A DNA stretch of 39,380 nucleotides from Patescibacteria group bacterium. GTDB taxonomy: Bacteria > Patescibacteriota > Patescibacteriia > 2-12-FULL-60-25. Of this stretch, positions 30,092 to 39,157 are shown in pieces (the first letter of the stretch is position 1; each line of letters begins with the position of its first letter). The notes below the pieces were generated by a model. The model saw nothing but the letters and a program-made list of their open reading frames with translations. It did no database searches and was not told the origin of the DNA. The DNA lies in contig JAKLEH010000006.1 of NCBI GenBank assembly GCA_022703155.1, positions 1 to 39,380 of the forward strand. The letters run 5' to 3'. The translations under genes were made by a program, and so were the position numbers.

Positions 30092-32933
<2,842 letters not shown>

Positions 32934-33039: not shown

Positions 33040-33666
33040 ATGCATCAGCGGCTGGTCATTCTGAACGCGCGTCTCGAGGAATTCTCTCTTGCCGTCTACG
33101 GTCTCGCCCAAACCATGTTTAGATGCGGCATAGCAGAACAGGAGCCTGAATGCGACGGCATGGACCTCGCATTGAACATGAAGTTCGACCACCAATGTCC
33201 AGTGCCGATAGTTTTTTCGACAACCCGTCTGATGGGTAGAATCAAGAGCGCTCAAACCGCAATTGCCAACATGATGATGCTTTGCGAGTACGCCGAATCA
33301 CGCGGCTGCGTATTGAAAGACAGCGGAACGAAGTTGGAACACGAGCGCGCGCTGGAACTGGTCGCCGTCAAAGGCAACCGCCGCTTGACATTGACGCTGG
33401 ACCTGGTCGACCACGAATTTGATGGGGAAAGCATGGTTACGGCAGAGACGTCGACGGGTACCGACGTAGTCACCCTGTTCCTGCATGAAAAAAACTGCGG
33501 AATAGATTTTTCCGATACGTCGCCCGCAACCCAATCCCTGTACCCCGATCTCCCATGTAAAAACGGCTCGAACAAGGTGGCCAAAGGCCAATGGCCCGCG
33601 CTGTTCGACGTCATGGTCTCGTACCTGCTTGCCGGTTCCAAACCGAAAAAGAGACGTGTCAAGTAA
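33040..33666 (+). CDS. Orphan protein, paralogue B of a tandem pair
   Basis: 208 residues. It starts MHQRLVILNARLEEF like paralogue A and keeps the same landmarks (GRIKSAQTAIANMMMLCEYA, ELVAVKGNRRLTLTLDLV, WPALFDVMVSYL, basic tail KPKKRRVK), but most positions differ. The duplication is therefore old, or the two evolve fast. A GGAAAGGAAAAA Shine-Dalgarno region matches that of A. It has its own promoter and terminator. Function unknown. Confidence 0.65.
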   Translation: MHQRLVILNARLEEFSLAVYGLAQTMFRCGIAEQEPECDGMDLALNMKFDHQCPVPIVFSTTRLMGRIKSAQTAIANMMMLCEYAESRGCVLKDSGTKLEHERALELVAVKGNRRLTLTLDLVDHEFDGESMVTAETSTGTDVVTLFLHEKNCGIDFSDTSPATQSLYPDLPCKNGSNKVAKGQWPALFDVMVSYLLAGSKPKKRRVK

Positions 33667-34092: not shown

Positions 34093-34947
34093 CTACGGAC
34101 ACGTCCCGGCCGAACCGACCTTCTTGCACAAAGCTTCCTGCGAAAAGACAGTATAACTGAATAGACCGGACAAAATATCTTGCCGCGGCATGGTGACCGT
34201 GAGTTTTTGCGTGGTTCGGCCATATGTCCCCTGGCTGCCCAACACGATATCGCCTGGGTAATTCAACTGCGCCGCGCCGTTATAGAACGCGACTTGGACG
34301 TTGCTCGCGCCGCATTTGAAGGGACGGATGCGCAAACGGTACGCCTTGGCCGGATCCAACGGTGAAATCGCCATGGGCGAAACCGAAAACGGCCACACAG
34401 TGTAGTTGGCCGAGGCCGTAGGCCAAGTGATGGTTCCGCCGGAAATTTGCCATTCGGCCGTCCCCACTTCCATGTCCGGCGAAACGAAACCCTTGGCCGC
34501 GCAATCCGCGCCCGGTTGCCACGAGATGGTCACTCGATCGGCGTTGGCCGTGGACGAGATGTTGTCAGGATCGAACAGGTCCACGAACGCCAATTGTTCT
34601 TGCCCCAAGGTCGTAAAAGATTTTGTCGCTGGAGTGTCGAAGCCCGTGGTGGATATCCATTTGGTCGCGCCCGGATAGGTGCTGGACGAGGACGCGATCT
34701 GCGTCAATGTTTTGTTTTCCTTGCGGATGGCATACAGCTGTTGCTCGATGCCCGCATTGGCCATGTAATAAGCGCCCACGGCCCGATCCATCTCTTGCGC
34801 GCGCTTGGAACCCTCCATGACCATCACGCCTATGGCCGCGCCCAACATCAAAAGCAACGACACCAACGTCAAAGCCATGGCCACGATGTTGCCGGGCGCT
34901 TTATGCGTTCGACTTTGGACTTTGGACTTTGGACTATTAACGCGCAT
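34093..34947 (-). CDS. PilX-like minor pilin or pilus-assembly protein
   Basis: 284 residues. A leader containing KAPG is followed by the hydrophobic helix NIVAMALTLVSLLLMLGAAI and then AVGAYYMANAGIEQQLYAI, the pattern of PilX/GspK-like minor pilins, which often lack the Glu at +5. The rest is a beta-rich extracellular domain with Cys pairs near the end. I chose the ATG at 34947, which overlaps the preceding pilin's stop by 11 nt; the codons right after it are heptamer repeat (SPKSKVQS). An earlier ATG at 35133 lies far inside the upstream gene and is rejected. It is the last gene of the pilus operon. Confidence 0.75.
   Translation of the reverse strand: MRVNSPKSKVQSRTHKAPGNIVAMALTLVSLLLMLGAAIGVMVMEGSKRAQEMDRAVGAYYMANAGIEQQLYAIRKENKTLTQIASSSSTYPGATKWISTTGFDTPATKSFTTLGQEQLAFVDLFDPDNISSTANADRVTISWQPGADCAAKGFVSPDMEVGTAEWQISGGTITWPTASANYTVWPFSVSPMAISPLDPAKAYRLRIRPFKCGASNVQVAFYNGAAQLNYPGDIVLGSQGTYGRTTQKLTVTMPRQDILSGLFSYTVFSQEALCKKVGSAGTCP
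34910..34937. repeat. GGACTTT heptamers in a pilin leader
   Basis: Four 7-bp units (CGACTTT, GGACTTT twice, GGACTAT). On the minus strand they encode leader residues NSPKSKVQSR of the PilX-like protein. Confidence 0.75.
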
Positions 34948-35653
34948 ATACGCGGGATGAAATCGTGGTCTGCACGTCATTGGTGACGCGTTCGTTGACG
35001 TTGGACGCCATGTAAGTGAGCTTGAGATAAAACGTGACCACGGGTTGGCGGTCGCTTTGGTAGGATCCGGCGCCATAATCGTATACGAACGGCGAGACGG
35101 TCGGCCAAACCAACACCTTAAAATCGTCGACATTGACGTTCCGCGAAGTCAACGGCGCCCAAGTCGAACCGCCATCCGTAGAGACCGCCAGACATCTGAC
35201 GTTTGAATAATCCAAACACACGGGGTCGTTATAGTCCGCTAGTTTGATTTTTGTGGCCACGCCGCCCTCTGGTTTTAGCGAAAGCGTGGATGTGGCTCCA
35301 CTCCAGGTCACCGAATAATCCACCGGCGTATTGCGTATCAGGCGCGCCGTATACTCGGTGACGTACCGCATGTCTTGTTGGACAGCGGCCGAATAACTGG
35401 TCTTATGCGACAAACGTATGAACGAGAGGTAGGTCTGCGACAGGATGGTGATGGTTATGGCGAACAGCAGCATGACCACCAGCAATTCCAAAACCGTATA
35501 ACCAGGTGCGCACGTCGCACGTCGCACTGCCTGCCCTGAGCGGAGCGGAGCGGAGTCGAATGGGTCGCTACGTCCCAGGCTCCTGGGACGCGGGACCACG
35601 CCAGAGGCGGGCGCAGCGCGGGACGCGGGACGATATTCCCTATCTCCAATCAT
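34937..35653 (-). CDS. PilW-like minor pilin with a long repeat-built leader
   Basis: 238 residues. The prepilin site is APG followed by YTVLELLVVMLLFAITITIL, with Glu at +5. The C-terminal part is beta-rich, as in PilW/PilJ-type minor pilins. From the ATG at 35653, which overlaps the preceding stop by 14 nt, the leader is about 50 residues where 5-10 is usual. It is built wholly of repeats (heptamers, a 21-bp palindrome, a GGAGC run). A GTG giving VRRATCAPG is a possible shorter start. PilD, encoded upstream, would cut after the Gly. Confidence 0.8.
   Translation of the reverse strand: MIGDREYRPASRAAPASGVVPRPRSLGRSDPFDSAPLRSGQAVRRATCAPGYTVLELLVVMLLFAITITILSQTYLSFIRLSHKTSYSAAVQQDMRYVTEYTARLIRNTPVDYSVTWSGATSTLSLKPEGGVATKIKLADYNDPVCLDYSNVRCLAVSTDGGSTWAPLTSRNVNVDDFKVLVWPTVSPFVYDYGAGSYQSDRQPVVTFYLKLTYMASNVNERVTNDVQTTISSRVYAR
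35507..35630. repeat. Composite repeat block in the PilW-like leader
   Basis: From low to high coordinate: GCACGTC heptamers (35510-35523), a GAGCG run (about 35538-35554), a GTCCCAGG/CCTGGGAC palindrome (about 35570-35588), a CGCGGGA heptamer (35589-35595), a 21-bp insert with core CGCCAGAGGCGGGCGC (35596-35616), and two CGCGGGA heptamers (35617-35630). Confidence 0.8.
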
Positions 35654-36293
35654 ATAAATCCGTATAGATGGTCAAGGTTTTGGTCTTATCCCGGCGCGTC
35701 CATTTGACATCGGCTTTGGCGCGCAAACCAATCAGGTTGGTTTGGGGCGCGGTCACGCAACCGCACACGCCCGTAGGGTACGTAATGACCGAATGATCCG
35801 CATTGGCGCAGATGGGTATGAAAGTCAGTAACCTAGAAAATTGCGTACTGGTGCCGGAAATGTTGTTGAGCACGTAAAACGTATTGGCATTCGAGGAGCG
35901 CTTTACCACGGCAGAAGCCTGATTGATGTCGGATACGTATGAAAAAAGCGGCTCGGACGAGCCGTCCCAACTCGGCACGACCGTGCAGCCGCCCATCAAA
36001 TTGGTCATACCGTAACCAAACGGCTGCGTTGCCAACCAATTGGAATCACGTTTGTTTTGCGCCAATTCCAGCATTTCGCGCGCCATGTTCATAGCCTGGA
36101 TGTTATCCGCGTCGCTTTCCTGCAAAGCCAAATTGGAAAAAATCAACGTGGTCACTCCGTATAAAGCCACTGAAATTATGAAAAGCACGATCAGCATCTC
36201 GATGATCGTCTGCCCCGGGAGACTCCTTCCCGACGTTGTACCGCGCCAGAGGCGGGCGCTGCATTGTACGTTGTACGTTGTACGAGTCTTCAT
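35640..36293 (-). CDS. PilV-like minor pilin with repeat-containing leader
   Basis: 217 residues. The prepilin site SLPG is followed by QTIIEMLIVLFIISVALYGV (Glu at +5) and an extracellular domain with Cys pairs (GGCTVV, PICANA, GVCGCV). The ATG at 36293 overlaps the stop of the preceding gene as ATGA, a strong sign that it is the true start. This gives a 27-residue leader, and its middle (TYNVQCSARLWRG) is encoded by GTTGTAC heptamers plus the 21-bp insert. The type (PilV/GspI) is inferred from position and the NMAREMLELAQNKRD region. Confidence 0.78.
   Translation of the reverse strand: MKTRTTYNVQCSARLWRGTTSGRSLPGQTIIEMLIVLFIISVALYGVTTLIFSNLALQESDADNIQAMNMAREMLELAQNKRDSNWLATQPFGYGMTNLMGGCTVVPSWDGSSEPLFSYVSDINQASAVVKRSSNANTFYVLNNISGTSTQFSRLLTFIPICANADHSVITYPTGVCGCVTAPQTNLIGLRAKADVKWTRRDKTKTLTIYTDLYDWR
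36235..36283. repeat. GTTGTAC heptamers with a 21-bp insert in a pilin leader
   Basis: GTTGTAC (36235-36241), then 21 bp with core CGCCAGAGGCGGGCGC (36242-36262), then ATTGTAC and two GTTGTAC units (36263-36283). Confidence 0.85.
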
Positions 36294-36940
36294 AACACCG
36301 ATACCCTCCCCGTTATTTTGTTGACTTCCACGTCCTTATATTCGCCGGAAACTTTGTGTCTGATGCGAATCAATATCAAATACGGCTCGGGTTGCGGCGG
36401 CACCAACACGTCCACGATGTGCGCTTGTCCGCTCTGCCGCACAAAGCTCACGTTGGCCCAAGCCGGACCGGCGCCCATCGAAGGCCAATACGTTTCGATG
36501 GATTGGATTTCGACCTTGTCGGACGTGCCTAGCAGCAATTCACGTTCCTGAATTTTTTCGTTAGCGCTCGTATATTTGTAATCCTGCGTGGCTGGATTTA
36601 CGTCCGCGAAAATCACGTATGACGACGATGCGGCATGCATCCAAATGCCATAACCCGACGGGATGGCGTCTTGGCACGCGCTAGCGCCGCAAGCGGCCGA
36701 GGAATTCTCGCACACGACATTTTCCGTACCTGGTTTGCACGTTTTGATGTTTTGGGCTTCGAGCGCCTGCGCTTGCGCGCTACGCAAATCGGACGCCAAC
36801 TGAGCCGCCGCCGCACGCAACTCGTCTTTTTGGTTGGCCGAACGCAAGCTGAATACGGTCAACAAAGACAATAAAACCACGATCGATAAAGCGACCAACA
36901 TCTCGGCCAGACTGAAGCCTGGGAGTTTACGTGAGCGCAT
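36290..36940 (-). CDS. GspH/FimT-like pseudopilin
   Basis: 216 residues with a short ordinary leader MRSRKLPG followed by FSLAEMLVALSIVVLLSLLT (Glu at +5). The helical spine continues as DELRAAAAQLASDLRSAQAQ, and a beta-rich domain with two or three Cys pairs follows. This is the GspH/FimT pattern of minor pilins that prime pilus assembly. I chose the ATG at 36940, which overlaps the pilD stop by 14 nt, over 37012. First of the four minor pilin genes after pilD. Confidence 0.82.
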   Translation of the reverse strand: MRSRKLPGFSLAEMLVALSIVVLLSLLTVFSLRSANQKDELRAAAAQLASDLRSAQAQALEAQNIKTCKPGTENVVCENSSAACGASACQDAIPSGYGIWMHAASSSYVIFADVNPATQDYKYTSANEKIQERELLLGTSDKVEIQSIETYWPSMGAGPAWANVSFVRQSGQAHIVDVLVPPQPEPYLILIRIRHKVSGEYKDVEVNKITGRVSVL

Positions 36941-37721: not shown

Positions 37722-37731
37722 GTTGGATCAG

Positions 37732-37822
37732 TCTATCAGGTCCATCAAGTCCTTCAGGTCCTTCAGGTTTGGGATCTCGGCACGGCGACCTGATGGACCT
37801 GACGGACCTGCGACCTGACGGA
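37732..37822. repeat. Inverted 9-bp arrays between pilD and a pilin gene
   Basis: TCCTTCAGG-type units (37732-37767) face CCTGACGGA-type units (37789-37822). Confidence 0.7.
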
Positions 37823-37826
37823 CGTG

Positions 37827-38294
37827 TCATTTAAGCTCATCCAACTGGTCCACGCCGTTCGCATGCGCGTAGTAAGTGCCTGCCGGGCCGTATGCCGTGG
37901 CGCGTTCGGTGGTGAAACGCAAACTGTAACCGCTCTGCGTACTGTGGTAGGCGTAATATTCGCCCGACTTGGGACCCGCGGGCACGGCTTCCAGGAAAAT
38001 CGGCGGCGTATTGTCTCCAGCCGGGGTAAAACCGTTGCCCGTCAACTTTTCCCCACCGCCTCCGGGCTTGCCCAAAAACACTCCGTCAGACACGGGATAC
38101 GCGGCTTTCTGCAACCAGAATTGGCTCAAGGCCGCACGCATTACCCCGATGTCGGAGATGCGTTTGGCGTCGCGGCTCATGGCGCGTTGCACGCCCAAGG
38201 CGTACGTGAAGATGGCGATGACGATGCCGATTATCAACAAACCGATAAGCAACTCGGGTATGGTCACGCCCGACAAACGACGGATTTTTAACAT
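37827..38294 (-). CDS. Type IV pilin-like protein
   Basis: 155 residues. Leader MLKIRRLSG, then VTIPELLIGLLIIGIVIAIF with Glu at +5, followed by AMSRDAKRISDIGVMRAALS, a spine typical of major-pilin-like or GspG-like proteins. The C-terminal part is Gly- and Tyr-rich without Cys. It lies between the major pilin candidate and pilD, with no terminator visible toward pilD, but a 110-bp repeat block separates them. Whether it is a main or minor subunit is open. Confidence 0.85.
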   Translation of the reverse strand: MLKIRRLSGVTIPELLIGLLIIGIVIAIFTYALGVQRAMSRDAKRISDIGVMRAALSQFWLQKAAYPVSDGVFLGKPGGGGEKLTGNGFTPAGDNTPPIFLEAVPAGPKSGEYYAYHSTQSGYSLRFTTERATAYGPAGTYYAHANGVDQLDELK

Positions 38295-39065: not shown

Positions 39066-39118
39066 CAACAGGTCTGTCAGGTCTATCAGGTAAGCATGAC
39101 CTGATTGACTTGAAGGAC
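39066..39118. repeat. Inverted 9-bp arrays in the pilin leader RNA
   Basis: CAGGTCTGT/CAGGTCTAT units (39069-39086) face CCTGATTGA/CTTGAAGGA units (about 39099-39118). They would be transcribed as a hairpin in the pilin 5' UTR. Confidence 0.6.
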
Positions 39119-39157
39119 ATGATGGGCTTAAAAGACGTTTATAAATTATTGTTGATA

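Follow-up and report, generated by a model that had tools for sequence, protein, structure and literature searches.

Heptamer tandem arrays in the leaders of three minor prepilins: probable local cases of a genome-wide 7-bp repeat in a Patescibacteria genome

Three consecutive minor prepilin genes of a type IV pilus operon carry different short tandem repeats between their start codons and their prepilin peptidase sites. With a probability of roughly 0.82, we regard these repeats as local cases of genome-wide 7-bp tandem arrays that are tolerated in prepilin leaders. The window, the whole stretch of 39,380 nucleotides analyzed here, is one contig of a 1.23 Mb genome in 55 contigs, which belongs to a family whose named members are Candidatus Uhrbacteria and other Patescibacteria MAGs. 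The operon lies on the minus strand of the window and includes the following genes.

39032-38523, minus strand: major pilin, leader of 6 aa
38294-37827, minus strand: pilin, leader of 9 aa
36927-37721, minus strand: PilD prepilin peptidase with the Pfam domains A24_N_bact and Peptidase_A24, the presumed leader remover
36290-36940, minus strand: FimT/GspH-like minor prepilin, ordinary leader of 8 aa, site G/FSLAE (the slash marks the cut)
35640-36293, minus strand: PilV-like minor prepilin, leader at 36213-36293, 27 aa
34937-35653, minus strand: PilW-like minor prepilin, leader at 35501-35653, 51 aa
34093-34947, minus strand: PilX-like minor prepilin, leader at 34891-34947, 19 aa

The class III prepilin signal peptide pattern, consisting of a basic leader, G or A, and a hydrophobic helix, usually with Glu at +5, is found here; the peptidase sites of PilV (G/QTIIE), PilW (G/YTVLE) and FimT have Glu5, and that of PilX (G/NIVAM) lacks it. 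The N_methyl domain (PF07963) gave E-values of 3.5e-4 for PilV, 9.5e-4 for FimT and 0.015 for PilW, all under the gathering score. A Pfam search with PilX returned no match, and this gene was identified by homology and operon order; its homologues within the genus are 50-56% identical. PilV orthologues were found in 34 of the 57 genomes searched, the nearest with 58% amino acid identity (one genome per species). The presence of the pilD gene in the operon suggests that the leaders are cleaved by PilD. The PilV start overlaps the preceding stop in the sequence ATGA, as the initial annotation of this DNA had it, and the PilW and PilX genes overlap their upstream neighbors by 14 and 11 nt.

The only match in an Rfam search of the window was a tRNA. 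Two adjoining plus-strand genes at 32274-32933 and 33040-33666, alike in size and start (MHQRL...) and with no Pfam match, each precede a terminator-like CGTCATTCTCGACGG-TTTTTT. Between the pilin genes, 9-bp arrays at 37730-37823 and 39069-39125, of the AGGTCCATC type followed by the GACCTGACG type, form inverted pairs that might be large hairpins or terminators; in this genome, only one array period is commoner than 9 bp.

Tandem repeats were called with TRF and the leaders were read codon by codon. The elements located in this way are listed below.

36264-36284, minus strand: TACAACG array (TTGTACG on the plus strand), 3 units, translated as TTYNVQ in the PilV leader
36237-36260, minus strand: hairpin-like element GCGCCCGCCTCTGGCGCGG in the PilV leader, followed by one further TACAACG unit
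35507-35632, minus strand: composite block in the PilW leader, with TCCCGCG units, CCCGCCTCTGGCG, CGACTCCGCTC...AGGGCAGGC with GAGCG x3.6, and GTGCGAC x2.7
34910-34937, minus strand: GTCCAAA array (GGACTTT on the plus strand), 3.6 units, translated as NSPKSKVQS in the PilX leader

The PilV leader, read from the ATG at 36293, is MKTRTTYNVQCSARLWRGTTSGRSLPG/QTIIE, and TRF reports TTGTACG x3.0 at 36264-36284. The PilW leader starts at the ATG at 35653 and ends in ...VRRATCAPG/YTVLE; the calls within it are CGCACGT x2.7 at 35509-35527, GAGCG x3.6 at 35538-35555 and CGCGGGA x2.3 at 35617-35632. The PilX leader, from the ATG at 34947, is MRVNSPKSKVQSRTHKAPG/NIVA and holds GACTTTG x3.6 at 34911-34935. 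These readings agree with the initial annotation, which had placed a different repeat in each of the three leaders, estimated the PilV and PilW leaders at 27 and about 50 residues, and given the GspH-like gene, the pilin at 37827 and the major pilin ordinary leaders of 6-9 residues. Neither PilV nor PilX has an ATG, GTG or TTG between the array and the cleavage site, so both arrays are obligatorily translated if the genes are expressed from their usual starts; the coding sequence thus points to translation of the leader arrays. In PilW there are GTG codons 33 and 9 codons upstream of the cleavage site. The latter, which yields VRRATCAPG, falls within the GTGCGAC repeat and could initiate, making PilW alone ambiguous in its start within this genome.

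The core CCCGCCTCTGGCG of the hairpin-like element in the PilV leader recurs in the PilW leader and at one other place in the genome, and with just 3 copies it was rejected as an abundant palindrome family. The PilV word TACAACG was likewise rejected as a phylum-wide repeat, being found in only this genome among 192 with one mismatch allowed; shorter or interrupted versions are present in the relative G001. We also observed that a CCTGCCC-RYCGAAGCTTCAGCGAARGAGG element is nested in a heptamer array in the PilW leader of G008 and in the PilX leader of G007, much as CCCGCCTCTGGCG sits within the arrays of the PilV and PilW leaders of the window.

The reading frame was compared across 25 operons, comprising that of the window and 24 orthologous operons of the family. 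In all 25, the interval between the PilV stop and the PilW cleavage site measures 1 mod 3, although PilW leaders vary from 6 to 51 aa. The PilW start lies inside the 3' end of PilV, where an ATG is open to the cleavage site in every operon; G009, G025 and both G029 operons have lost the usual ATG (in the YDW/YDWR codons) and have an in-frame ATG a few codons upstream instead. All 12 operons with gaps of at least 40 nt keep the overlapping ATG in frame, and 6 of them have no later start. If the frame were free, the chance of 12 such matches would be about (1/3)^12, a figure that overstates the strength of the result because the genomes are related. PilX resembles PilW in most operons; in the exceptions the gene starts anew behind the upstream stop. 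Across the operons, no obligatorily translated leader has an array that breaks the frame; some junction arrays in relatives, as at PilV in G029, precede an ordinary ATG and are untranslated. The long leaders are basic: 28 of the 31 carry a net positive charge, with a mean of +4.3.

The DNA inserted at these junctions has a period of seven. Two bases 7 nt apart are identical with a frequency of 0.392 in long junctions versus 0.249 in mature pilin, with harmonics at 14 and 21, and period-7 arrays occupy 14 of 97 leader or junction segments (4.1 kb) versus none of 97 mature segments (43.6 kb). Recent events are visible in two pairs of operons. Over 2151 aligned operon bases with 88% nucleotide identity, G002 and G005 differ by a single indel, a 39-bp array of the heptamer CTCGAAK within the PilW leader. 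The two operons of G029 are 87% identical and show no indels in their aligned mature regions; one has a 66-bp palindromic insert in its PilW leader, the DNA upstream of PilV and PilX has changed, and the two FimT leaders, equal in length (20 aa, 60 nt), consist of wholly different heptamers. The absence of arrays from mature pilin, the constant PilW frame and the position of the sole indel between G002 and G005 uphold the earlier suggestion that the leader is a tolerant landing site for repeats.

The arrays extend well beyond the pilus operon. In a 346-kb sample of this genome, period 7 accounts for 41 exact arrays of 18 nt or more, compared with 0 in second-order Markov controls, and all other periods from 4 to 12 combined account for 6 exact arrays; a tolerant definition gives 76 arrays, one masked N-run having been left out. 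Per 100 kb, this genome has 11.9 period-7 arrays, the rest of the genus 5.5 and other genera of the family 3.4; small samples gave 0.6 for other families and 2.2 for other classes. Predicted genes make up 86% of the sequence, and about two thirds of the arrays found with the tolerant definition are located outside them, giving a roughly 14-fold difference in density, although the noncoding share is slightly overstated because our home-made gene caller clips repeat-rich leaders. The words are specific to species: GTCGGAN x3 has 54 overlapping matches here and 0 in 16 relatives, GGGAACN x3 has 111 matches in G032 and 0 in 16 other genomes, and CTCGAAK occurs at many loci in G005 and at fewer in G002, G001 and G000. 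Among 54 arrays of the genome sample there are 26 distinct circular words. The repeats described at the pilin genes are thus present there and are not a feature of pilin genes only.

A shared GTNC core, suspected by eye, was rejected, as AC and GT dinucleotides are not enriched (z 0.9 and 0.3). Many arrays, seven catalogued loci among them, look like a fixed hexamer with one variable base, as in GTCGGAN, CATGTAN and GGGAACN, and in arrays of 4 units the differences are confined to one column 14 times against 4.7 expected (maximum 13 in 2000 simulations). A test of whether array orientation favors a hydrophilic peptide gave 12 of 17, a non-significant result (p 0.14).

Within coding sequence, in-frame arrays of this genome are found in the LigA linker, the NusA tail, DnaG, a TruB loop, an HflX loop, the PGK tail and a penicillin-binding protein. 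The LigA array lies in the window.

30340-30367, minus strand: AGTTTCG array, 4 units, translated as SSFEFRVS in the HhH-BRCT linker of LigA (30109-32181)

At 36 nt, this linker is equally long in nine species of the genus (loci L147-L155 and the window region), and in five of the nine it contains clear heptamers, with mostly different words and 20-24 of 29 period-7 matches, which suggests length-neutral word turnover. Similarly, the TruB loop carries an array in this genome, and its alignment length is unchanged in several array-free relatives. HflX contains an insertion of some 30 aa. With the LigA and TruB lengths constant and HflX lengthened, both length-neutral replacement and insertion occur. 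In G005 a heptamer array in a GatA-like protein gives a net gain of 5 aa relative to G002, and CTCGAAK arrays stand in several unrelated ORFs of G005, G002, G001 and G000. The array contexts in a relative that we call GatA-like, RlmN-like and LeuRS-like are presumably those proteins, named from sequence features.

We propose that 7-bp arrays, together with a few short palindromes, have spread in Ca. Uhrbacteria, each species having its own words, and that they arise genome-wide and persist where they would be harmless, in intergenic DNA, protein loops, linkers, tails and prepilin leaders. In the compact operon each prepilin start lies inside the end of the upstream gene, so that DNA added at a junction becomes the leader of the next gene. 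Frame-keeping arrays would survive there because PilD is expected to cut the leader off before pilus assembly, and what the leaders apparently retain is their frame, their basic charge and the cleavage site. Translation itself, cleavage of the long leaders by PilD, selective neutrality of the arrays and the mode of their spread are the presumptive parts of this scheme. Prepilin leaders are one permissive site among several.

The initial annotation had raised another possibility, in which slippage of the 7-bp units would switch PilV, PilW and PilX on and off and so vary pilus composition. A translated unit that is not a multiple of three, placed in three leaders at the 5' ends of surface-protein genes, of which PilV and PilX have no alternative start, is what such contingency loci would look like. 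Against this, the obligatorily translated leader arrays are all in frame across operons, the unit numbers here are only 2-4, and the arrays are not confined to dispensable or surface functions. They run in frame through LigA, TruB, HflX, NusA and PGK, and through the GatA-like and RlmN-like proteins of a relative; as an OFF state in essential genes should be harmful or lethal, and as the LigA linker is identical in length in nine species despite differing words, we consider phase variation of the pilus improbable. Length polymorphism is proven at SSR loci of the Haemophilus influenzae HMW1A type, which resemble the present case in having 7-bp repeats on the 5' side of a surface-protein gene, whereas the obligatorily translated states observed here are all in frame (PMC8262952, available portion).

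Two further readings give the repeats a function near the start codon or in the leader peptide. Binding sites or structure in the 5' DNA or RNA, with the real starts downstream, would recall the TAACTGA heptamers of Beggiatoaceae, which lie just upstream of starts and were proposed to be translational signals (PMC4679880), and could make use of the PilW GTG that gives VRRATCAPG. PilV and PilX have no downstream start, however, and the PilW frame to the overlapping ATG is conserved in all 25 operons; the words, being wholly different among species, leave no shared binding site. This makes a regulatory origin with downstream starts very unlikely, and the arrays might nonetheless regulate translation of the downstream gene. 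The long leaders could themselves be functional, for example as long prepilin signals like those of type IVb or as targeting peptides; they remain strongly basic, and other type IV pilins also have leaders of more than 9 aa. Neither their length nor their sequence is conserved even between relatives with 87-88% identity, however, and a range of 6-51 aa for one gene makes this the least probable of the readings, to which we give very little credence.

Local cases of genome-wide arrays, our preferred reading, can be set beside several known repeat systems. Rickettsia palindromic elements (RPEs) are in-frame dispersed repeats in protein-coding genes (Ogata et al. 2000, reviewed in PMC10969869), and likewise enter many unrelated, often housekeeping, proteins; according to the portion of the review available, they are palindromes of about 150 bp with a conserved peptide, and that portion makes no mention of prepilin leaders. 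Here we find 7-bp arrays with species-specific words and no common sequence, and no RPE-type palindrome of about 150 bp with a conserved peptide, only minor palindromic pieces. The TAACTGA repeats of Beggiatoaceae and Cyanobacteria are 7-bp direct repeats in 2-6 copies, mostly intergenic and occasionally at the periphery of ORFs, but the same single word recurs in distant phyla, and repeats of related words are rare or absent (PMC4679880); each genome here has many words, which differ by species, often lie inside ORFs and do not reduce to one word per lineage. The G-rich heptamers of Xanthomonas and Nostoc also form dispersed 7-bp arrays, preferably between co-oriented genes, but are a single G-quadruplex-forming word under-represented in coding regions, and the available part of the source (PMC4692102) describes no leader or linker insertions. 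Borg aaTRs are rapidly evolving tandem repeats, both intergenic and translated in ORFs; their in-ORF units are all divisible by three (PMC9879509), whereas the 7-bp units here keep the frame through net length only. In the open-access literature we found no description of such a heptamer system in work on Uhrbacteria, Parcubacteria or CPR repeats, no paper on leader repeats with phase variation in prepilins, and no report combining species-specific 7-bp words within ORFs with prepilin leaders.

The length-neutral cases (36 nt in the LigA linker, the TruB loop and 60 nt in the FimT leaders) suggest a further idea, which we put forward tentatively and with some doubt: a mechanism in Ca. Uhrbacteria may write species-specific 7-bp words at dozens to more than 100 loci, sometimes overwriting sequence without changing its length. 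If this is true, even a non-triplet repeat can spread through coding sequence, and linkers and prepilin leaders are being rewritten all the time. Taken together, our data describe a CPR lineage with a heptamer repeat system of species-specific words that enters essential proteins in frame, and in which gene finders will mis-call starts in operons of this kind. The prepilin leader would be a protein segment able to tolerate repeat DNA, its peptide presumably being discarded, and the finding raises the question of how an array of 7-bp units can spread while reading frames stay intact.
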